Of a stretch of 64,000 nt of DNA, positions 19,136 through 42,918 are shown one piece after another. This DNA comes from Ectobacillus sp. JY-23. GTDB lineage: Bacteria; Bacillota; Bacilli; Bacillales; Bacillaceae_G. The notes beneath the pieces are model-generated. The model was given only the letters and a program-made list of their open reading frames with translations. It made no database searches and was not told the origin of the DNA. The translations under genes were made by a program, and so were the position numbers. Numbering within the stretch: the first letter of the stretch is position 1; the number at the start of each line of letters is the position of its first letter. The stretch is from the NCBI RefSeq assembly GCF_023022965.1, contig NZ_CP095462.1:3080001-3144000 (forward strand), given 5' to 3'.

Positions 19136-19171
19136 ACAAATTAAAATTACCGTACAAATTCATAATAAAGC

Positions 19172-19411
19172 CATGAAGGGTTTTAAGTAGGAGTTATCTC
19201 CCTGTTGCAGAGAGCTGATGGTTGGTGAAAATCAGCACATAGATAATTGTGAAATACAATCCCCGAGCATCTCTTTCGTAGTGAAGTATATGTCATGAAG
19301 GGAGAGACGGTCATTTGATCGTTAACATGAAGAGTGGCGGATGTAAGTCCGCAACAAGGGTGGTACCGCGATAACTATCGTCCCTGCTGTTTATTCAGCA
19401 GGGACTTTTTG
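19172..19411 (+). ncRNA. T-box leader 1 (tyrosine specifier)
   Basis: Hallmarks are AGAGAGCTGATGG with the following AAATCAG segment, the specifier region GAAATACAATC with UAC at 19255-19257 (Tyr), and AGGGTGGTACCGCG (19357-19370). The intrinsic terminator GTCCCTGCTG/CAGCAGGGAC plus T run is at 19380-19411. Uncharged tRNA-Tyr would stabilise the antiterminator. It is followed directly by a second T-box, not a gene. Confidence 0.93.
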
Positions 19412-19430
19412 TATATAATTTCATAGTGAG

Positions 19431-19657
19431 CAATGAAGGAATTTCAGTAGTACTTGTCTCCCTGTTACAGAGAGCTGATGGTCGGTGCAAATCAGTACAC
19501 AGGCAAGCATGAAATACGATTCCCGAGCATCTCCTTCCGGTTGAGGAGGAGACGGTCATGAGATCGTTACCAATAAAAGCGGCGAAGTGTGACTTCGCAA
19601 GTAGGGTGGTACCGCGATGATCATCGTCCCTGTCATAAGGCAGGGGCGTTTTTTTAT
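19431..19657 (+). ncRNA. T-box leader 2 (tyrosine specifier), tandem with leader 1
   Basis: A full second T-box: AGAGAGCTGATGG, specifier UAC at 19515-19517 inside GAAATACGATT, AGGGTGGTACCGCG at 19603-19616, and terminator CGTCCCTG/CAGGGGCG plus T run at 19625-19655. Two terminators in series, both answering to the same tRNA, should give tighter and steeper control of the downstream aro gene than one. Confidence 0.93.
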
Positions 19658-19958: not shown

Positions 19959-20073
19959 ATATGATGAAAGGGGTGATGGCTTTCTTTTCCGATTGGTTGA
20001 AACAGCCGTCTCATGCGGTTGGTATTGAATTAGAACTGGCGTTTATAATACACATATAACAGGAGGAATGAAC

Positions 20074-21171
20074 ATGAAAACTCATGAATTAGACAGATTG
20101 CGTCAAAAGGTAGATGAAATTAACCTGCAGTTGCTTAAGCTTTTGAACGAACGCGGTAAGATTGTAAAAGAAATTGGAGAGCAAAAAACGCTGCAAGGTG
20201 TAAAACGCTTTGACCCTGTGCGTGAGCGTCAGGTATTGGATATGATTGCAGAAAATAATGAAGGACCGTTTGAGACATCTACTGTCCAGCACATCTTTAA
20301 AACAATCTTCAAAGCAAGCCTTGAGCTGCAGGAAGATGATAATCGTAAAGCATTGCTTGTATCTCGTAAGAAAAAGCCAGAAAACACAATTGTTGATATT
20401 AAAGGCGAAAAACTTGGTGATGGTACACAATCATTTATCATGGGGCCTTGTGCAGTTGAGAGCTACGAGCAAGTACGTGAAGTTGCAAAAGCGATGAAAG
20501 CGCAAGGTCTTCGCTTAATGCGAGGCGGTGCCTTTAAGCCGCGCACATCTCCGTACGATTTCCAGGGTCTTGGTATAGAAGGTCTTGAAATTTTACGCAA
20601 AGTTGCCGATGAGTTTGATATGGCTATCATCAGTGAGATTTTAAATCCAAACGATATTGAAATGTCATTGGATTACGTAGATGTAATTCAAATCGGTGCA
20701 CGCAATATGCAAAACTTCGATTTACTAAAGGCTGCGGGTAAAGTAAATAAGCCAGTATTGTTAAAGCGTGGTTTGGCAGCAACAATTGAAGAATTCATTA
20801 ATGCAGCAGAGTACATCATTGCGCAAGGCAATGATCAAATCATCCTATGTGAGCGCGGTATCCGCACATATGAAAAAGCAACGCGCAATACGCTTGATAT
20901 TTCGGCAGTACCAATTTTAAAACAAGAAACGCACTTGCCGGTCGTTGTGGATGTAACGCATTCAACAGGACGAAGAGATCTATTGCTTCCGACAGCCAAA
21001 GCTGCGTTAGCAATCGGTGCCGACGCTGTTATGGCAGAAGTACATCCAGATCCTGCAGTTGCACTTTCAGATTCTGCACAGCAAATGAATATCCCGCAAT
21101 TTAATGCGTTCATGGAAGAATTGAAAGATTTTCGTTCTAAGTTAGCAGGTTCTGTACAACATAGTGTGTGA
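20074..21171 (+). CDS. aroA: Bifunctional chorismate mutase / DAHP synthase
   Basis: 365 aa. The N-terminal 90 residues form an AroQ-type chorismate mutase domain ([20 protein letters not shown], then [11 protein letters not shown]). The rest is a KDO8P-like DAHP synthase ([67 protein letters not shown]). It performs the first step of the shikimate pathway. In Bacillus the mutase domain gives feedback sensitivity to chorismate and prephenate. The gene is named aroA or aroA(G) in B. subtilis. The start is ATG 20074, seven bases after AGGAGG; the ATG at 20068 is too close. Two Tyr T-boxes govern it. Confidence 0.93.
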
Positions 21172-21175
21172 TGAC

Positions 21176-21397
21176 GGGAATTTCAGTAATAGCCGCTTCC
21201 CTATCTCAGAGAGCTGATGGCAGGTGTGAATCAGTATATAAGCGGATATGAAGTACACTCCCTGAGCTTCTTTTTCTAGTAAGGAAAAGACGGTCTGTCA
21301 GATCGTTAACAACAAGAGAGGCAGCTATTTGGCTGCAATCAGGGTGGTACCGCGGTCATCATCGTCCCTGCCGATACAGTCGGCAGGGATTTTTTTA
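21176..21397 (+). ncRNA. T-box leader 3 (tyrosine specifier) before tyrA
   Basis: Third T-box of the cluster: AGAGAGCTGATGG, specifier UAC at 21254-21256 inside GAAGTACACTC, AGGGTGGTACCGCG at 21341-21354, and terminator GTCCCTGCCGA/TCGGCAGGGAT plus T run at 21364-21397. It begins within five bases of the aro stop codon, so read-through from the upstream unit meets a further checkpoint. Confidence 0.93.
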
Positions 21398-21418
21398 GGA
21401 CAAAAAGGGAGTGAAGAT

Positions 21419-22507
21419 ATGCAAAAGAGAGTGCTGGTCATCGGAATGGGCTTAATTGGTGGATCGATTGCATTGGCCATTAAAAAGATACATGATGTAA
21501 AAGTCATAGGTTTTGATATTCGTGATTTACAGCCTGCGATTGAGCTCGGTGTCATTGATGAAATAGCTGGAGACGTGGGGCAAGCGGCAGAGGACGCACA
21601 TTTAATTGTCTTGGCGTTACCAGTGGAAGAAACTGCTTCTATGCTAGCACAGCTCGCTCATGCCAAGATGAGGCAGGATGTTATTATTACGGACGTAGGC
21701 AGCACAAAAGAACACATTATGATTGCGGCGGATACATTGCTTCCTCGTGAAGTAACATTTATTGGTGGTCATCCGATGGCCGGCTCTCATAAAAACGGGG
21801 TAGAAAGCGCAAAGGCACATTTGTTTGAAAATGCATTTTACATTTTAACACCGAGGCAGGGAACAGCTACTGAAAAAGTAGAAGAGCTAAAGCTTTGGCT
21901 TGCAGGCACACATGCACATTTTTTATTAATGCAACAAAAGGAACATGATTATGTGACTGGTATTGTGAGTCATTTTCCGCATTTAATCGCTGCAGGTTTA
22001 GTAAAACAAGTGAAGAGACATGCAGCACATACACCGCTTGTAAATATGCTTGCAGCTGGTGGATTTCGTGATATTACACGAATTGCCTCTAGCAGTCCAA
22101 AAATGTGGAATGACATTGTGAAGCAAAATCAGGGACACTTAAGTCAGCTGCTGGAAGAATGGATAGAAGATATGCAAGATTTAAAACAGCTAGTGGATAA
22201 CGGAGAAGAACTTCAAAGTTACTTTTCTGATGCAAAAATGTACCGCGATGCTTTGCCACTTCGTACCAAAGGAGCTATTCCATCTTATTTTGATTTATAT
22301 GTAGATGTACTGGATAAAGCAGGCGAACTGGCAAAAGTAACAGCCGTACTTGCTGAGAACGGGATTAGCATTACCAATTTGCAAATATTAGAAGCTCGTG
22401 AAGGGCTTTTAGGTGTACTGCGCATCAGCTTTCGAACCGAAAAGGATCGCATGCAAGCTAGTGGATGTCTAGAAAGTGTAGGGTATGAAACGTATGAAGC
22501 GCTGTAA
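21419..22507 (+). CDS. tyrA: Prephenate dehydrogenase with ACT domain
   Basis: 362 aa. Oxidatively decarboxylates prephenate to 4-hydroxyphenylpyruvate with NAD in tyrosine synthesis. The Rossmann motif is VLVIGMGLIGGSIALAIK at the start. Then come DVGSTKEHIM and FIGGHPMAGSHKNGVESAKA, the latter holding the catalytic-histidine region. The C-terminal 75 residues form an ACT domain (YVDVLDKAGELAKVTAVLAE, NGISITNLQILEAREG), probably for tyrosine feedback. The start is ATG 21419 after GGGAGTGAAGAT. The frame remains open upstream into the T-box terminator but is non-coding there. Confidence 0.93.
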   Translation: MQKRVLVIGMGLIGGSIALAIKKIHDVKVIGFDIRDLQPAIELGVIDEIAGDVGQAAEDAHLIVLALPVEETASMLAQLAHAKMRQDVIITDVGSTKEHIMIAADTLLPREVTFIGGHPMAGSHKNGVESAKAHLFENAFYILTPRQGTATEKVEELKLWLAGTHAHFLLMQQKEHDYVTGIVSHFPHLIAAGLVKQVKRHAAHTPLVNMLAAGGFRDITRIASSSPKMWNDIVKQNQGHLSQLLEEWIEDMQDLKQLVDNGEELQSYFSDAKMYRDALPLRTKGAIPSYFDLYVDVLDKAGELAKVTAVLAENGISITNLQILEAREGLLGVLRISFRTEKDRMQASGCLESVGYETYEAL

Positions 22508-35203: not shown

Positions 35204-35268
35204 ATTGGCAAACATAGGCCCTATACACTATGATGATATGCAAAATCACATGATTGAGGTGAATGATC

Positions 35269-36411
35269 ATGCACGGAGAGATTTTCCGTAGAAGAACACC
35301 GGAAGAGTATTTAGAAGAACTTGCTCGGCAGCAGCGTGGCAAGCTTAAGGTATATATTGGCGCTGCGCCCGGTGTGGGAAAAACATATAAAATGCTTCAG
35401 GATGCACAGGATTTAAAAAAAGAAGGCATCGACGTTGTCGTAGGTCTCGTTGAGACGCATGGGCGCACTGATACAGATGCACAGCTGGGCGAATTGGTAG
35501 TATTTCCTATGAAAGAGATTACCTATAAGGGAAAAATCTTTTATGAAGTAGACACAGAAGGAATTATAAAGCGTGCGCCTCAGGTGGTACTTATTGATGA
35601 GCTTGCCCATACCAATGCACCAGGCTCTAAGCATCATAAAAGATACATGGATGTCGAAGAGATTTTAGAGGCTGGTATTGATGTATGTTCCGCTATGAAT
35701 ATCCAGCATTTGGAGAGTGTGCACGATATTGTCCAGCAAATTACGGGTGTGGCTGTTCGAGAGCGTGTTCCAGATTCCGTGCTGCAAAAAGCCAATGAAA
35801 TTCAGTTAATTGATGTAACGCCGGAGATGCTTCAGAAACGGTTAGTGGAAGGGAAGATTTATCGGCAGGAAAAGATTCAACAAAGTCTACAAAATTTTTT
35901 CACGATAACGAATTTAGGTGCGCTACGTGAACTCGCTTTGCGAGAGGTGGCTGATGATGTTGACGAAAAAATTGTATCCCCACAGGAGGATGAAACATGG
36001 TCTATCGGTATTAAAGAACGTATTCTAGTATGCGTGCAATACGGTTCAACTGCCGAAAGGTTAATCCGAAGAGGAGCGCGTATGGCAAGCAGGTTGAATG
36101 CAGATTTATATGTGCTGAATGTAAGAGCAGATAGCGGTGATTTCAACTCTCCAGCTCGAAATCAGATACTGGCGGAGTGGGAATCTTTAACACATCAATT
36201 TGGTGCAGAGTTTATTGTGGAGCCTGCGAGTGGAAGAAAGCCAGCAGATGTCATCATTGATGTTGCGAGCACATATAAGATTACGCAAGTACTTCTCGGT
36301 CAATCAGCGCGTACAAGATGGGAGGAAATAACAAAAGGCTCCATCGTCAATGTAATTATGCGAAAAACAAAAAATATTGATATTCACATCGTAGCCGATA
36401 GCGGCAAATAG
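35269..36411 (+). CDS. KdpD-like sensor protein without histidine kinase
   Basis: 380 aa. It covers only the cytoplasmic front of KdpD: the KdpD domain (RGKLKVYIGAAPGVGKTYKM with Walker A, VGLVETHGRTDTDAQL, VVLIDELAHTNAPGSKHHKR) and a universal-stress-like domain (ILVCVQYGSTAERLIRRGAR to NIDIHIVADSGK). The four membrane helices, the GAF region and the kinase are absent. The gene ends cleanly with TAG. No kdpE is nearby. USP domains of full-length KdpD bind c-di-AMP in Staphylococcus; whether this one does is unknown. The start is ATG 35269, since 35263 abuts the GAGGTGA site. Confidence 0.85.
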   Translation: MHGEIFRRRTPEEYLEELARQQRGKLKVYIGAAPGVGKTYKMLQDAQDLKKEGIDVVVGLVETHGRTDTDAQLGELVVFPMKEITYKGKIFYEVDTEGIIKRAPQVVLIDELAHTNAPGSKHHKRYMDVEEILEAGIDVCSAMNIQHLESVHDIVQQITGVAVRERVPDSVLQKANEIQLIDVTPEMLQKRLVEGKIYRQEKIQQSLQNFFTITNLGALRELALREVADDVDEKIVSPQEDETWSIGIKERILVCVQYGSTAERLIRRGARMASRLNADLYVLNVRADSGDFNSPARNQILAEWESLTHQFGAEFIVEPASGRKPADVIIDVASTYKITQVLLGQSARTRWEEITKGSIVNVIMRKTKNIDIHIVADSGK

Positions 36412-36666: not shown

Positions 36667-36795
36667 TCATGCTGAATCCACTTGGAGCGGGGGAACCATA
36701 TATGTGCGTGTGCACTTGGGGTGAATCCTTAGTAAGGTAGGGCTACTCTCATATCCCGAACCCGACAGCTAACCTCGTAAGCGTGTTGAGAGGAT
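36667..36795 (+). ncRNA. c-di-AMP riboswitch (ydaO/yuaA class), first copy
   Basis: Conserved words in order: GAATCCACTTGGAGCGGGGG AACC, CACTTGGGGTGAATCCTTAG, GGTAGGGCTACTCTC, CCCGAACCCGACAGCTAACC and TCGTAAGCG. This class normally turns expression off when c-di-AMP is high. It precedes the genes at 37022 and 37448. About 225 bases separate it from the first start codon. The expression platform is unclear, but AAAGGGCTTC near 36850 could pair with GAAGTCCCTTT at about 36976-36986 before T-rich sequence. The gap from 36412 to the riboswitch shows no gene I can support. Confidence 0.93.
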
Positions 36796-37021
36796 GGTGG
36801 AAAGAATGATTCTACGTTGCCATTCCGGATAAAAGTGAGACTTTAAGTAAAGGGCTTCATTTGTAACAAAAAGAAGGGTTAATCTACTGTCTGAATAAGG
36901 AAGATTTCAGCTTCTAAATCGGATGCAGACCTTTTGAGGGGTGTATATAAGCCTTTTGATGTTAAGCATGCGAAAGAAGTCCCTTTTTTGCGTTTTTATT
37001 TTTACTTAAGGAGGAGCTTTT

Positions 37022-37417
37022 ATGTGGGAAAATCAAGAGCTTGTATTGGTGTGCGTAGGGGATGAGGAAAAGGTAGCTTGTCTGCATAGCTTGATAGGAC
37101 ATCGAACTTTAATCATTGTTACAGTGCATGAAATGATTGCATGGACTGCAAGGGAACTTGGATTTCAGTGTATTATTCGTTCTACGCAGAATCCGCAAGC
37201 TCTCTTGCCGATTGCGGAAAGTGTTTCTAAAGCGATAGTACTTAGTGATACGTTGCCAACAATCAGTTTTTTTACGGAACTAATCCGCTTCAACTTAAAT
37301 GTTCCGATTACTGTCGTGACTCGGAATAAGCAATATCCTGTTCAACTTTATAAAACAATGGGAGCAAAGTATGTGGTTTATACGAATTGTGACAATATGA
37401 AACCATTTGTTTCCTAA
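37022..37417 (+). CDS. Small RCK_N/TrkA-N-like protein under c-di-AMP riboswitch
   Basis: 131 aa, not clearly assigned. The second half reads like the later part of a TrkA-N/RCK nucleotide-binding fold: SKAIVLSDTLPTISFFTELI, LNVPITVVTRNKQYPV, LYKTMGAKYVVYTN. In RCK proteins this region carries the alanine-valine strand, the aspartate-rich turn and the GA(D)xV strand. The N-terminal strand is VLVCVGDEEKVACLH, where the usual GxGxxG is lost, so NAD binding is doubtful. No membrane segment. Preceded by AAGGAGGAGC. Its riboswitch and the kdp neighbourhood suggest a role in potassium homeostasis. Confidence 0.55.
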   Translation: MWENQELVLVCVGDEEKVACLHSLIGHRTLIIVTVHEMIAWTARELGFQCIIRSTQNPQALLPIAESVSKAIVLSDTLPTISFFTELIRFNLNVPITVVTRNKQYPVQLYKTMGAKYVVYTNCDNMKPFVS

Positions 37418-37447
37418 AGAAGATAAAGTGAATGGGGAGGAACCCGT

Positions 37448-37696
37448 ATGAGACATCTGCCAGGACTTTTATTATATAGGGATCTTGTGAAAAGGTGGGC
37501 TCTGACCTACGAAAGAGTGCGGGAACTGGCAGAAAGCAAAGGTGATTTCCCGAAGCCTTATATGTTTTTGTATGAAGAGAATGTACCTGTATACCTTGAG
37601 AAAGAAATTGTAGAATACGAGAAAAATCATTCTGAGCTTGTATGCAGCAGTTTCCGAGGCAGGAGCATTCATATCCTCGGTCCGTATTTTGAGTAG
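37448..37696 (+). CDS. 82-aa possible AlpA/MerR-like DNA-binding protein
   Basis: Starts MRHLPGLLLYRDLVKRWALT, then YERVRELAESKGDFPKPYMF and EENVPVYLEKEIVEYEKNH. The spacing resembles HTH_17 excisionase/AlpA folds (recognition helix, a proline-rich turn, then a DxxxY-like helix). This is by eye only. It lies 30 bases behind the RCK-like gene with GGGGAGG upstream, so both share the riboswitch. A second c-di-AMP riboswitch follows. Confidence 0.5.
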   Translation: MRHLPGLLLYRDLVKRWALTYERVRELAESKGDFPKPYMFLYEENVPVYLEKEIVEYEKNHSELVCSSFRGRSIHILGPYFE

Positions 37697-37849
37697 AAGT
37701 TTATCAATCAAATAAAGCAAGAAATATATAATATAAGCGTTTTAATATAAAAAGTTTGTTTTTTATAAAAAAACCTCTTTACATGTAGTTTTTACAGGAG
37801 TATATTTACTTTCATAAGTCACAACTAAATTTTACCGAAGCAACCTTTA

Positions 37850-37985
37850 ATCGCTGAGTCCATTAGGAGCGGGGGAACCAACTTTGTGCGCAAGCACTTG
37901 GGGTGAATCCTTCTTTAGTGAAGGTAGGGCTACTCTCAAAGCCCGAATCCGACAGCTAACCTCGTAAGCGTTTCGGGAGGGGGTA
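37850..37985 (+). ncRNA. c-di-AMP riboswitch (ydaO/yuaA class), second copy, kdp leader
   Basis: Shares all conserved blocks with the first copy: GAGTCCATTAGGAGCGGGGG AACC, CACTTGGGGTGAATCC, GGTAGGGCTACTCTC, CCCGAATCCGACAGCTAACC, TCGTAAGCG. Control of kdp by such a riboswitch is known in Bacillus thuringiensis. High c-di-AMP (plentiful K+) should promote the terminator at 38007-38037 and shut off kdp. Confidence 0.95.
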
Positions 37986-38006
37986 TACTTTCGTGTTGCC
38001 TAAAAA

Positions 38007-38037
38007 GAGCACTGAGTAACCTCTCAGTGCTTTTTTG
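38007..38037 (+). terminator. Expression-platform terminator of the kdp riboswitch
   Basis: AGCACTGA/TCAGTGCT stem plus T6, placed between the riboswitch aptamer and the first small kdp ORF. Confidence 0.88.
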
Positions 38038-38078
38038 TGCATTTTTAATGGTAAAATTTGTAAATTAGGAGGGGTGTC

Positions 38079-38183
38079 ATGTTAGATGTAATGATGGTAG
38101 GTGCGTTTATTCTGCTGACTGCATCTATGGCAGGGTTAGCAAAGTGGTCTGATAATGTAGTGAAGGAAGGGAACAAGCAATGA
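38079..38183 (+). CDS. 34-aa membrane peptide at the head of the kdp operon
   Basis: Reads MLDVMMVGAFILLTASMAGL, one membrane helix, then AKWSDNVVKEGNKQ. TTAGGAGGGG is correctly spaced before the ATG, and its stop overlaps the kdpF start (ATGA). It resembles KdpF in size and topology but lacks the NPEKF ending. It may be a further small Kdp subunit. Confidence 0.65.
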   Translation: MLDVMMVGAFILLTASMAGLAKWSDNVVKEGNKQ

Positions 38184-38257
38184 TCGTACTGTTAGGAATC
38201 GTTGCGGTAGTTACGGTGTACTTAGTATATGCATTACTCAATCCAGAGAAGTTTTAA
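38180..38257 (+). CDS. kdpF: Potassium-transporting ATPase small subunit KdpF
   Basis: 25 aa: MIVLLGIVAVVTVYLVYALL then NPEKF. The single helix and NPE(K/R)F ending are diagnostic for KdpF, the lipid-like stabiliser of the KdpFABC complex. It overlaps the 34-aa ORF by four bases. Confidence 0.92.
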   Translation: MIVLLGIVAVVTVYLVYALLNPEKF

Positions 38258-38276: not shown

Positions 38277-39944
38277 ATGGCTTGGATAGCAGTCAGTATC
38301 ACTATTGGACTATTTATTTTATTAGCAAAACCGATGGGGGCTTATTTAGAAAAAGCATTTCAGGGAGACTCGAAATTAGAAAAGATTTTCGGCTCTGTTG
38401 AAAAAATTATTTTTAAGATTGCAGGTATTAAGCCCTACAATCAAAACTGGAAGCAATATGCTTTGGCGTTAGTTTTGACAAATAGTTTGATGATTGTGTT
38501 TGTGTATTTAATATTCCGATTGCAAGGCGTACTGCCATTGAATCCAAGCAACATTCCGGGTATGGAACCAACGCTTGCTTTTAACACAGCAATCAGCTTT
38601 ATGACAAACACAAACTTGCAGCACTACAGCGGAGAAACCGGCCTGTCTTACTTATCTCAAATGCTTGGTATCACATTTATGATGTTTGCTGCACCTGCTA
38701 CAACATTAGCGATTGCAATTGCTTTCATTCGTAGCTTAGCAGGTAAGAAATTAGGAAACTTCTTCGTTGATTTTACTAGAGCCATTACACGTTTACTTCT
38801 TCCATTAAGCTTTGTCGCAGCGTTGATTTTTGTGTTGCTAGGAGTGCCGCAAACATTAGAACCTGCAGCAGTAGCTAACACGGTTGAAGGAGCAAAACAA
38901 TTAATTGCGCGTGGTCCTGTAGCCTCGTTACTTTCAATTAAAGAGCTTGGGAATAACGGTGGTGGATTTTTTGGAGTCAACTCCGCACATCCTTTTGAAA
39001 ATCCAAATATGATTAGCAATATCTTGCAAATGATTCTTATGATGCTTTTACCGACTGCCCTGCCTTTTACATACGGCAGAATGGTAGGAAATAAAAAGCA
39101 GGGACGTATTCTATTCGTTTCCATGCTGATGTTGTTCTTGATTGGTTTCGGCACAATTGCCACTACAGAGCTACAAGGTAATCCGGCATTGAACCAGCTG
39201 GGCATTCAATATGACGAAGGTAATATGGAAGGAAAAGAAGTCCGCTTCGGAACGGTATGGTCCGCCTTATATGCAACGGTTACAACCGCTTCAGAGACAG
39301 GGGGCGTTAATACAATGCATGATACATTAACACCAATTGGCGGTATGGTTCCTCTTATAAATATGCTGTTAAATACAGTATTTGGCGGTGTGGGAGCAGG
39401 GTTTATCAACGTCATTATGTATGCGATGATAGCCGTATTTATTTCCGGTTTAATGGTGGGTCGTACACCTGAGTTTTTAGGAAAGAAATTGGAAGGAAAA
39501 GAAATGAAGCTCATAGCGGTGACACTTTTGTTCCAACCACTTCTCATATTGGGAGCTTCAGCAATCGCCTTTTCTACAGAATTAGGAATGGGAGCCATTT
39601 CAAACTCCGGCTTTCACGGAATTACACAAGTCATCTATGAATACACTTCATCCGCCGCGAATAACGGATCGGGGTTTGAAGGATTAGGAGATAATACGCC
39701 ATTTTGGAATATTTCAACTGGCCTTGTGATGTATTTGGGACGTTATTTTGGGTTAGTCACAATGCTTGCGGTCGCAGCATCTTTAAAAGAAAAGACTTTG
39801 GCACCGGAAACAGTTGGGACGTTTCGTACAGATAATGGTTTATTCGGTGGTATTTTTGTAGGAACAATTTTCCTTGTAGGTGCTTTGACATTTTTCCCAA
39901 TTTTAGTTTTAGGACCAATTGCTGAATTTCTCACTTTGAAGTGA
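38277..39944 (+). CDS. kdpA: Potassium-transporting ATPase subunit KdpA
   Basis: 555 aa, the K+-channel-like subunit of KdpFABC with ten membrane helices and four SF-type filter loops: NTAISFMTNTNLQHYSGETG, KELGNNGGGFFGVNSAHPFE, ATVTTASETGGVNTMHDTLT and SSAANNGSGFEG. The protein selects K+ at micromolar concentrations. AGGAGAGA precedes the ATG. Intact and of normal length. Confidence 0.97.
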   Translation: MAWIAVSITIGLFILLAKPMGAYLEKAFQGDSKLEKIFGSVEKIIFKIAGIKPYNQNWKQYALALVLTNSLMIVFVYLIFRLQGVLPLNPSNIPGMEPTLAFNTAISFMTNTNLQHYSGETGLSYLSQMLGITFMMFAAPATTLAIAIAFIRSLAGKKLGNFFVDFTRAITRLLLPLSFVAALIFVLLGVPQTLEPAAVANTVEGAKQLIARGPVASLLSIKELGNNGGGFFGVNSAHPFENPNMISNILQMILMMLLPTALPFTYGRMVGNKKQGRILFVSMLMLFLIGFGTIATTELQGNPALNQLGIQYDEGNMEGKEVRFGTVWSALYATVTTASETGGVNTMHDTLTPIGGMVPLINMLLNTVFGGVGAGFINVIMYAMIAVFISGLMVGRTPEFLGKKLEGKEMKLIAVTLLFQPLLILGASAIAFSTELGMGAISNSGFHGITQVIYEYTSSAANNGSGFEGLGDNTPFWNISTGLVMYLGRYFGLVTMLAVAASLKEKTLAPETVGTFRTDNGLFGGIFVGTIFLVGALTFFPILVLGPIAEFLTLK

Positions 39945-42059: not shown

Positions 42060-42641
42060 ATGAAAACCAAACAGAGTATACTAGCACCCGTCATTCGGCT
42101 AACAGCAACAACTGTTGTATTATGTGGTCTTGTATATCCCGCTTTAGTAACAGTAGTCGCACAAGTGACAATGCCCGATAGAGCGGACGGTAGTTTGATC
42201 TATAATGATCAAAATGAAGTAATCGGTTCTGCATTAATAGGTCAAAACTTTAAAGAACCACGCTATTTTCAAGGACGTGTATCTAGTATTGCATATAAGT
42301 CTGAAGCATCCGGCAGTAATAACTATGCACCATCAAACCCTGAGTTGCTGACAAGAACAGAAGAGTCGCTGAAGCAGTGGGAAGAAAATAATCCGACAGT
42401 TCCTGTTTCGCAAGTACCGATTGATTTAGTGACAAACTCTGGATCTGGTCTCGATCCACATATCAGCCCGGCAGCTGCGAGAGCACAAATTGATCGAGTT
42501 GCGAAGTATACAGGGTTGACTAAAGCAGAGCTTCAGGATTTGATACAAGAACAAACTGAGCCGCTGGAGTTAGGCCTATTTGGAACAGAAAAGGTAAATG
42601 TGTTGAAATTAAATATAGCACTTCAAAAGTTAATGAAATAA
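42060..42641 (+). CDS. kdpC: Potassium-transporting ATPase subunit KdpC
   Basis: 193 aa with one N-terminal membrane helix ([20 protein letters not shown]) and a soluble domain: [20 protein letters not shown], then [20 protein letters not shown]. It completes the KdpFABC pump. No kdpD/kdpE two-component pair follows; a terminator comes directly after. Confidence 0.96.
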
Positions 42642-42671: not shown

Positions 42672-42687
42672 ATAAAGGAGGCAGATG

Positions 42688-42918
42688 ATGAAGCTACAAA
42701 TAGAAGGAACAAAAGATCTGAAGCTATTTCAAACGGTACAGGTCAAAGAATGTGAAGATTTATTCATCATAACAGGTTTTAAATTGGAACGAACATATCA
42801 GCAAAGTGTCATTGTTCCAAAAGCGACTTGTGTTGTCCTCACGCAAATACAGAAAGAAGCAAATGGCTATCGAATTGGTGATCCTTGTTTATATGCAATT
42901 GACCAAATCAAATTTTAA
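42688..42918 (+). CDS. 76-aa protein of unknown function behind kdpC
   Basis: Reads MKLQIEGTKDLKLFQTVQVK, then VPKATCVVLTQIQKEANGYR and ends CLYAIDQIKF. It appears to be an all-beta soluble domain; no signal or membrane helix. The ribosome binding site AAAGGAGG fits ATG 42688 better than ATG 42685. It lies after the kdp terminator, so may be transcribed by read-through or its own weak promoter. Confidence 0.55.
   Translation: MKLQIEGTKDLKLFQTVQVKECEDLFIITGFKLERTYQQSVIVPKATCVVLTQIQKEANGYRIGDPCLYAIDQIKF

Follow-up and report, generated by a model that had tools for sequence, protein, structure and literature searches.

A predicted stand-alone RCK_N protein family linked to kdp operons and c-di-AMP riboswitches in Bacilli

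The kdp locus of Ectobacillus sp. JY-23 lies within a stretch of 64,000 nucleotides of contig NZ_CP095462.1 (assembly GCF_023022965.1, positions 3,080,001 to 3,144,000), referred to here as the window. In this locus two riboswitches for cyclic di-AMP (c-di-AMP), RS1 and RS2, flank two small open reading frames (ORFs), ORF1 and ORF2, upstream of kdpFABC. ORF1 is predicted to encode a stand-alone RCK_N (TrkA-N/KTN) fold that lacks both the nucleotide motif GxGxxG and an RCK_C domain. Its relatives form a family that has lost this motif, shows linkage with kdp as well as with c-di-AMP riboswitches, and co-occurs with KdpA. The predicted fold and the family linkage, taken jointly, are held with high confidence. 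It is proposed more tentatively, at a probability of about 0.45, that ORF1 is an RCK_N protein without the nucleotide motif that acts, under c-di-AMP control, as a partner of K+ uptake, most probably of Kdp.

Fold and distribution of the ORF1 family

An AlphaFold (AF2) model of the ORF1 protein, built with 12 homologues from genome contig loci (alignment A4), reached a predicted local distance difference test score (pLDDT) of 88.4 and a predicted template modelling score (pTM) of 0.83. When this model was compared with known structures by the aligner VIA, all 50 of the 50 rows shown were RCK/KTN domains (Z 9.8–12.4), with MthK at Z 12.4 (117 residues, 2.6 Å) and Bacillus subtilis KtrA at Z 11.9 (117 residues, 2.8 Å). 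Similarly, the first 41 Foldseek rows were all RCK domains of MthK, GsuK or KefB (best E 2.8e-5), followed by a few dehydrogenases. The best natural matches in a profile search of the PDB were 3llv (TrkA-N, E 0.009) and GsuK (E 0.018–0.03 over residues 4–121). A first-pass annotation of the locus had read the second half of ORF1 as RCK_N/TrkA-N-like without GxGxxG, and the structural comparisons support an RCK_N-type fold for the predicted model. The corresponding loop reads VGDEEK in the window copy and often P-x-K-x-G-E in other family members. RCK_C is likewise absent from this 131-residue protein, one RCK_N match spanning the whole model.

Within the family, strands 4 to 6 are the most conserved. 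The first half, where a nucleotide site would lie, is less so, with strand 2 near the mean. The interface through which RCK_N rings assemble lies in helices D and E. No NCBIfam model matches ORF1, and among 18 family members each of two acrylyl-CoA reductase models matched a single one; the family thus appears, with no convincing match, to be covered neither by Pfam nor by an NCBIfam model of its own. Compared with Ectobacillus panaciterrae, the ratio of non-synonymous to synonymous substitution rates (dN/dS) over 108 codons of ORF1 was 0.15 by NG86 (dS 1.6, near saturation) and 0.22 by YN00; that of ORF2 was 0.15 by NG86 (dS 2.2, near saturation), YN00 giving no result. Both genes look to be under purifying selection. 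A reading of ORF1 as a degenerate response-regulator receiver (LSDTLP...PITVVT...GAKYVV) was dropped because the structural matches are RCK/KTN domains. The absence of receivers among the structural rows is not proof, as one fold fills the list; response-regulator chains appeared in the PDB profile search only at E 0.5–0.9.

Family counts were made in 398 Bacilli genomes with profile A1, and KdpA was identified by PF03814. The profile matched 27 of these genomes and 4 of 19 genomes of the taxonomic family, while the single ORF1 sequence matched 5 of 60 genomes including its own, one of them (G009) by a C-terminal fragment only. No relative was found in the viral contigs scanned with ORF1. KdpA is present in 27/27 ORF1 genomes against 150/398 overall, and in 9/9 ORF1 genera against 50/146 (p = 7e-13 by genomes and 4e-5 by genera, statistics that ignore kinship). 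A same-strand c-di-AMP riboswitch lies at most 1.2 kb upstream of ORF1 in 20 of the 27 genomes by hand count, with two genes intervening in G183. kdpA lies within about 8 kb of ORF1 in 14, and one or other element accompanies it in 21 (hand count). Across several genera, homologues show linkage with kdp and with c-di-AMP riboswitches, a point on which the first-pass annotation had made its reading depend. A frequent operon order is riboswitch(es), ORF1, a microprotein gene, kdpF, kdpA, kdpB, kdpC and short KdpD.

The 12 titled loci of alignment A4 come from Ectobacillus, Gottfriedia, Metabacillus, Rossellomorea, Siminovitchia, a Brevibacillus metagenome-assembled genome (MAG) and Paenibacillus. 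Ten have a same-strand riboswitch 5' of ORF1 (not L064 or L066), and ten have kdpA within 10 kb (not L069 or L071). L064 and L065 duplicate the loci of G003 and G017, and Siminovitchia terrae L072 is here nearly identical to the Brevibacillus MAG L073, so L072 may be misnamed or contaminated. Fifteen further kdp loci were inspected, six from ORF1 genomes with ORF1 elsewhere and nine from genomes without a match to the ORF1 profile. As these nine include an ORF1 fragment (L106) and genes of a related subfamily B (L107, L108, L111), the profile count of 27/398 underestimates the family. In G404 and G396, an ORF1 copy stands beside kdp without any riboswitch; a search upstream of ORF1 with filters off found none at L048 and L059, where ORF1 keeps to kdp in this way, or at L053, L055 and L062 (best E 0.57). 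The G404 and G396 copies indicate that the link points to the pump rather than to the RNA. Together with riboswitch-led ORF1 genes that lie away from kdp, they also show that neither association needs the other.

In subfamily B (alignment A8), the loop is mostly retained as GKGxxF or GRGxxF. Matches to its profile weaker than E 1e-40 (61 of 80 genomes) were excluded, and the 19 strong matches from these 398 genomes are all at most 7 kb away from kdpA. Subfamilies A, that of ORF1, and B together occupy 43 genomes, of which 43 have KdpA. Five of the weaker matches were inspected: L138 and L139 are KtrA-type by eye, and L136, L140 and L142 are orphans of 136–145 residues. L136 and L140 (family f78, 136–140 residues) are RCK_N-like and lie behind a c-di-AMP riboswitch, L142 without one. 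An alignment of subfamily B with a KtrA-type protein covered 110 columns (83%, E 8.8e-6), and one with subfamily A covered 66 columns in the second half (98%, E 2.6e-13). In the PDB profile search with subfamily B, de novo designs stood on top, with KtrC at 0.067 and KtrA at 0.22. Subfamily B may accordingly be read as a modest sequence bridge from KtrA-type RCK_N proteins to ORF1.

Paralogues of subfamilies B and A also occur in series 5' of kdp, each behind its own c-di-AMP riboswitch (L044, L045, L096). Other riboswitch-led genes beside kdp encode MpsC (PF10057), a CBS-domain protein, an HPr-like protein (below cut-off) and a stand-alone USP-like protein. Such riboswitch-led neighbours of kdp lie at L008:10268-11643, L046:6866-8159 and L009:13864-15879, with four riboswitches at L009.

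The kdp locus of Ectobacillus sp. JY-23

The features of the locus, all on the + strand, are as follows.

35263..36411, +, short KdpD (KdpD domain and USP, no histidine kinase), 382 aa; KdpD_non_kinase NF038185 (611.8 bits, cut-off 550), PF02702, PF00582
36660..36797, +, RS1, c-di-AMP riboswitch aptamer 1; RF00379, 101.8 bits, E 4.9e-23, full length (positions 1-134 of 134)
36963..37004, +, weak terminator-like hairpin and T-tract just 5' of ORF1; -8.9 kcal/mol, z -2.2
37022..37417, +, ORF1, predicted 131-aa stand-alone RCK_N-like protein without GxGxxG; AF2 model, RCK/KTN structural matches, family alignment A3
37448..37696, +, ORF2, 82-aa possible winged helix-turn-helix protein (MerR/BldC/excisionase-like); weak AF2 model and Foldseek
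37842..37985, +, RS2, c-di-AMP riboswitch aptamer 2, of kdp; RF00379, 110.7 bits, E 1.6e-25, positions 1-134 of 134
38003..38036, +, intrinsic terminator of RS2; terminator scan, z -3.8 for 37978-38060
38079..38183, +, putative membrane microprotein, 34 aa, overlapping the kdpF start by 4 nt; similar ORF at kdp loci, by eye
38180..38257, +, presumed kdpF, 25 aa; sequence
38277..39944, +, kdpA; PF03814
39958..42045, +, presumed kdpB, TGES motif retained; ORF list
42060..42641, +, presumed kdpC; ORF list (kdpB and kdpC are named from sequence and gene order)

Both riboswitch matches are well above the RF00379 gathering cut-off of 38 bits, and their starts are 1.18 kb apart, in agreement with the two intact ydaO-class riboswitches some 1.2 kb apart noted in the first-pass annotation. 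Its account of their surroundings also stands. RS1 leads into the two-gene unit of ORF1 and ORF2. Behind RS2 come a terminator-like site of 14 pairs, the 34-aa ORF and kdpF, A, B and C. The terminator scan found none for RS1. Genome-wide, three c-di-AMP riboswitches exceed the cut-off: RS1, RS2 and one 5' of an AA_permease_2 transporter (weak K_trans match), which we take to be KimA-like. The ORF1 unit is thus one of three riboswitch units, of which the other two serve K+ importers of the Kdp and, presumably, KimA-like type. In Bacillus thuringiensis, c-di-AMP turns transcription off at the kdp riboswitch, and riboswitch control without KdpE has been described there (PMC6488665); the annotation had named the kdp riboswitch of this species as known.

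A microprotein of about 30–38 aa, putatively single-pass in the membrane, lies directly 5' of kdpF at the 22 kdp loci listed (by eye; for example L044, L050, L067 and L072) and often overlaps the kdpF start by 4 nt. Its start is uncertain at several loci, and kdpF itself is not evident at L075. Two copies tested had no Pfam match.

The 382-aa KdpD retains Walker A (GAAPGVGKT) and Walker B (VVLIDELAH) motifs, and its match to the non-kinase model agrees with the earlier description of a KdpD front half without kinase. As the DUF4118 membrane domain (PF13493) has no match in this genome (it is present in 3 of 14 control genomes), a full-length KdpD is probably absent. No response regulator was seen by eye among the ORFs listed in the 30–46 kb region, with no KdpE-specific or genome-wide search made. 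According to PMC11018627, short KdpD acts on KdpB as a serine kinase and is stimulated by c-di-AMP.

At the end of other kdp operons, two short KdpD modules are fused in one frame of 771–793 aa (L047, L048, L049, L059, L063, L098-L101, L103-L105, L107, L108). The fused copy at L099 has two PF02702 stretches and Usp, with no histidine kinase domain. The word stem 'duplicat' is absent from the text of PMC11018627.

ORF2 has no family match in Pfam or NCBIfam. The best of five AF2 models reached a pLDDT of 73, the others 38–49, and residues 69–82 were not confidently modelled. The Foldseek rows, none of them significant, were mixed and led by BldC (best E 0.18) and MerR-type folds, with the excisionase RdfS also present. 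Outside Ectobacillus, 6 of 348 genomes of the order have homologues (E 1e-4 to 7e-12), two with an internal stop; a weak match in G010 with four internal stops was rejected as noise. ORF2 was seen at kdp in Ectobacillus only, the remaining homologues being short helix-turn-helix (HTH)-like proteins in other surroundings, judged from 3-kb loci. The homologue L084 matches HTH_3 at E 0.015, below cut-off. The suggestion that ORF2 is a possible HTH protein finds weak support: the homologue match and the BldC/MerR-led folds favour it, and no match reaches significance. A DNA-binding role for ORF2 is plausible. ORF2 would be a genus-level addition, possibly a DNA-binding HTH protein of mobile-element type, and would not be needed for the function of the ORF1 family.

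Elsewhere in the window, a 77-aa ORF 3' of kdpC (42685-42918), without a Pfam or NCBIfam match, recurs at the Ectobacillus kdp loci L006 (43% identity) and L061 (96%). Three T-box leaders pass Rfam gathering (19164-19634, 21162-21372): two in tandem 5' of gene 20068-21171, which we take to be DAHP synthase/chorismate mutase-like, and one 5' of gene 21329-22507, presumably prephenate dehydrogenase-like.

Proposed function and its alternatives

KtrA and TrkA rings regulate KtrB and TrkH, and KdpA is a relative of these RCK-gated proteins; to our knowledge, Kdp has long been thought to work without an RCK partner. The best argument for a partnership of ORF1 with Kdp, tentative as that partnership is, is strict co-occurrence with KdpA together with the tight linkage of subfamily B. 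RS1 would keep ORF1 off at high c-di-AMP, hence at high K+, and would let it be made when c-di-AMP falls; we infer this direction because the B. thuringiensis kdp riboswitch is an OFF switch. ORF1 would then act post-translationally as a ligand-motif-free RCK_N adaptor that may oligomerise through its conserved second half, dock on KdpFABC and/or the short KdpD serine kinase, and so tune pump activity during K+ starvation. At low K+, Kdp would be on, short KdpD idle and ORF1 made, the state expected from a riboswitch turned off by c-di-AMP and a short KdpD stimulated by it (PMC6488665 and PMC11018627). That the Kdp of many Bacilli has a cytosolic, nucleotide-blind RCK_N subunit, riboswitch-controlled and docking on KdpA or short KdpD, is an extension we think unlikely.

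A number of observations weigh against an RCK_N partner of Kdp. On the side of the fold, the evidence from sequence is weak: the PDB profile search with ORF1 was topped by two de novo designed proteins (E 0.0004 and 0.006), the TrkA_N (PF02254) score of ORF1 is 14.5 bits against a cut-off of 23.8, and hhalign gave 18% when a KtrA-type sequence was compared with subfamily A by itself. Counting Pfam matches at E up to 1, TrkA_N matched 4 of 18 family members (best 0.004) and ADH_zinc_N matched 6 (best 5e-4); NmrA matched one (5e-4), and other members hit unrelated families weakly. TrkA_N, ADH_zinc_N and NmrA are all Rossmann-type.

On the side of linkage, 107 of the 150 KdpA genomes have neither subfamily A nor B, so the family is not a constant part of Kdp. 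Nor is it needed at every kdp locus: L104, L105, L109, L110 and L112 hold no member, although the last three are riboswitch-led. Six of the 27 ORF1 genomes, all of genus g83, have neither riboswitch nor kdp beside ORF1. In seven more, a riboswitch-led ORF1 lies away from kdp, as does one of the two ORF1 copies of G396. Among the seven, G119, G231 and G379 have kdp with a full-length KdpD and no riboswitch, and ORF1 riboswitch-led elsewhere, so that co-regulation of ORF1 with the pump is not universal.

Within Ectobacillus, E. panaciterrae lacks RS1 and has a frameshifted ORF1 (a draft genome, in which sequencing error is possible) with ORF2 intact. In G001, where KdpA shares 99% identity, RS1 and ORF1 are missing and ORF2 is reduced to its last 39 residues; genes for an IS1595-type transposase and an S51 peptidase occupy the site. 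ORF1 is on this evidence dispensable in the genus; G002 has neither a KdpA nor an ORF1 match. In the window itself, the hairpin and T-tract 166 nt 3' of the RS1 aptamer, just before the ORF1 Shine-Dalgarno sequence, are weak. In E. panaciterrae, a 70-nt stretch at the same place 5' of ORF1 forms a stronger hairpin (-22.4 kcal/mol).

Some of these observations would suit other roles. Under K+ starvation ORF1, an RCK_N protein without a nucleotide site, could join the gating rings of KtrA/KtrC and alter their response to nucleotides, with Kdp only co-regulated. The N subdomain is the part through which RCK_N domains assemble, and KtrA/KtrC-type proteins can be aligned with subfamily B. The genome holds five TrkA_N matches over the cut-off as possible partners. 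Riboswitch-led ORF1 lies away from kdp in the seven genomes above, and in three of these kdp has a full-length KdpD of its own. That every ORF1 genome has KdpA, that 14 of 27 have kdp next to ORF1 and that all 19 subfamily B genes have it as a neighbour argues for Kdp instead, and we regard a role in Ktr or Trk rings as unlikely. More improbable is that the RCK_N fold has been re-used for a new ligand, with ORF1 serving as a soluble receptor or sink of c-di-AMP or some other molecule and feeding back on the second messenger. It would account for riboswitch-led RCK_N genes without kdp nearby (L051, L052, L054, L057, L058, L060, L091, L095, and the orphans L136 and L140), but ORF1 has no known c-di-AMP site; that of Ktr lies in RCK_C, which ORF1 lacks. 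Of much the same low probability is a relic, the RS1 unit in Ectobacillus decaying from a riboswitch-ORF1-kdp operon with little present function. The missing RS1 and frameshifted ORF1 of E. panaciterrae, the replacement of ORF1 in G001 and the weak RS1 hairpin would fit such decay; the intact RS1, ORF1 and ORF2 of the window, with their low dN/dS, would not.

The first-pass annotation had suggested that RNA and two small proteins replace the KdpDE switch, so that ORF1 and ORF2 would form a transcription switch. The weak HTH character of ORF2, its adjacency to ORF1 and the dN/dS of 0.15 shared by both genes are compatible with this, and it is nonetheless very improbable. The short KdpD corresponds to a described kinase, and Ectobacillus is the only genus in which ORF2 was seen at kdp. 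Both sister genomes that carry kdp have lost ORF1 or have it frameshifted. In addition, four ORF1 genomes (G404, G119, G231 and G379) carry a full-length KdpD at kdp, with an OmpR-type response regulator beside it in the first three; G379 was searched within the fetched stretch. Full-length KdpD and regulator precede the kdp operon in G119 and G231, and full-length KdpD follows kdp in G379. At L059 the full-length KdpD (KdpD, Usp, DUF4118, GAF, HisKA, HATPase_c) is divergent, and a response regulator of OmpR type is present. ORF1 therefore coexists with KdpDE in some genomes. In B. thuringiensis, moreover, riboswitch and terminator suffice to control kdp, according to PMC6488665.

A partnership of ORF1 with Kdp, if true, would link the RCK world of Ktr, Trk and MthK to Kdp; were the partner Ktr instead, ORF1 would be a c-di-AMP-controlled modulator of RCK rings. 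ORF1 is a candidate for an unrecognised regulatory part.

Relation to known systems

KdpFABC is a model high-affinity K+ pump, and its described control comprises KdpDE, the serine kinase half of KdpD and c-di-AMP riboswitches. An orphan RCK_N gene that recurs, often as the first gene of a kdp operon led by a riboswitch, would bring a protein layer into this control. Judged by titles and the beginnings of abstracts, no RCK_N protein of a Kdp system was recognised in the literature searched. The orphan RCK_N family at kdp was not found in print by these searches, whereas riboswitch-kdp operons, short KdpD and tandem c-di-AMP riboswitches are already known.

The kdpFABC operon of B. thuringiensis resembles that of the window in its RF00379-type riboswitch and terminator before kdpF and its truncated KdpD, with no KdpE there. 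PMC6488665 lists 12 species with a riboswitch-kdp operon, mainly of the B. cereus group, and the term RCK has 0 occurrences in its text. Here, by comparison, riboswitch-led kdp extends to several families of Bacilli, often with ORF1. The short KdpD of Deinococcus geothermalis (PMC11018627) shares the KdpD/USP architecture of 35263-36411, and the TGES motif of KdpB is kept here; the window copy differs in lying upstream of RS1, outside the kdp operon, and elsewhere two modules are often fused. Two c-di-AMP riboswitches in series are known from 77 doublets (PMC9481103), whereas here two genes lie between RS1 and RS2.

The ORF2 model weakly resembles small HTH proteins of the MerR, BldC and excisionase types, from which it differs in having no significant match. 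ORF1 compares most directly with the RCK subunits KtrA/KtrC and TrkA, with which it shares an RCK_N fold predicted over its full length, the context of K+ uptake and the alignment of subfamily B. Unlike these, it is a single RCK_N domain with no RCK_C, subfamily A has no GxGxxG, and its gene often lies beside kdp.

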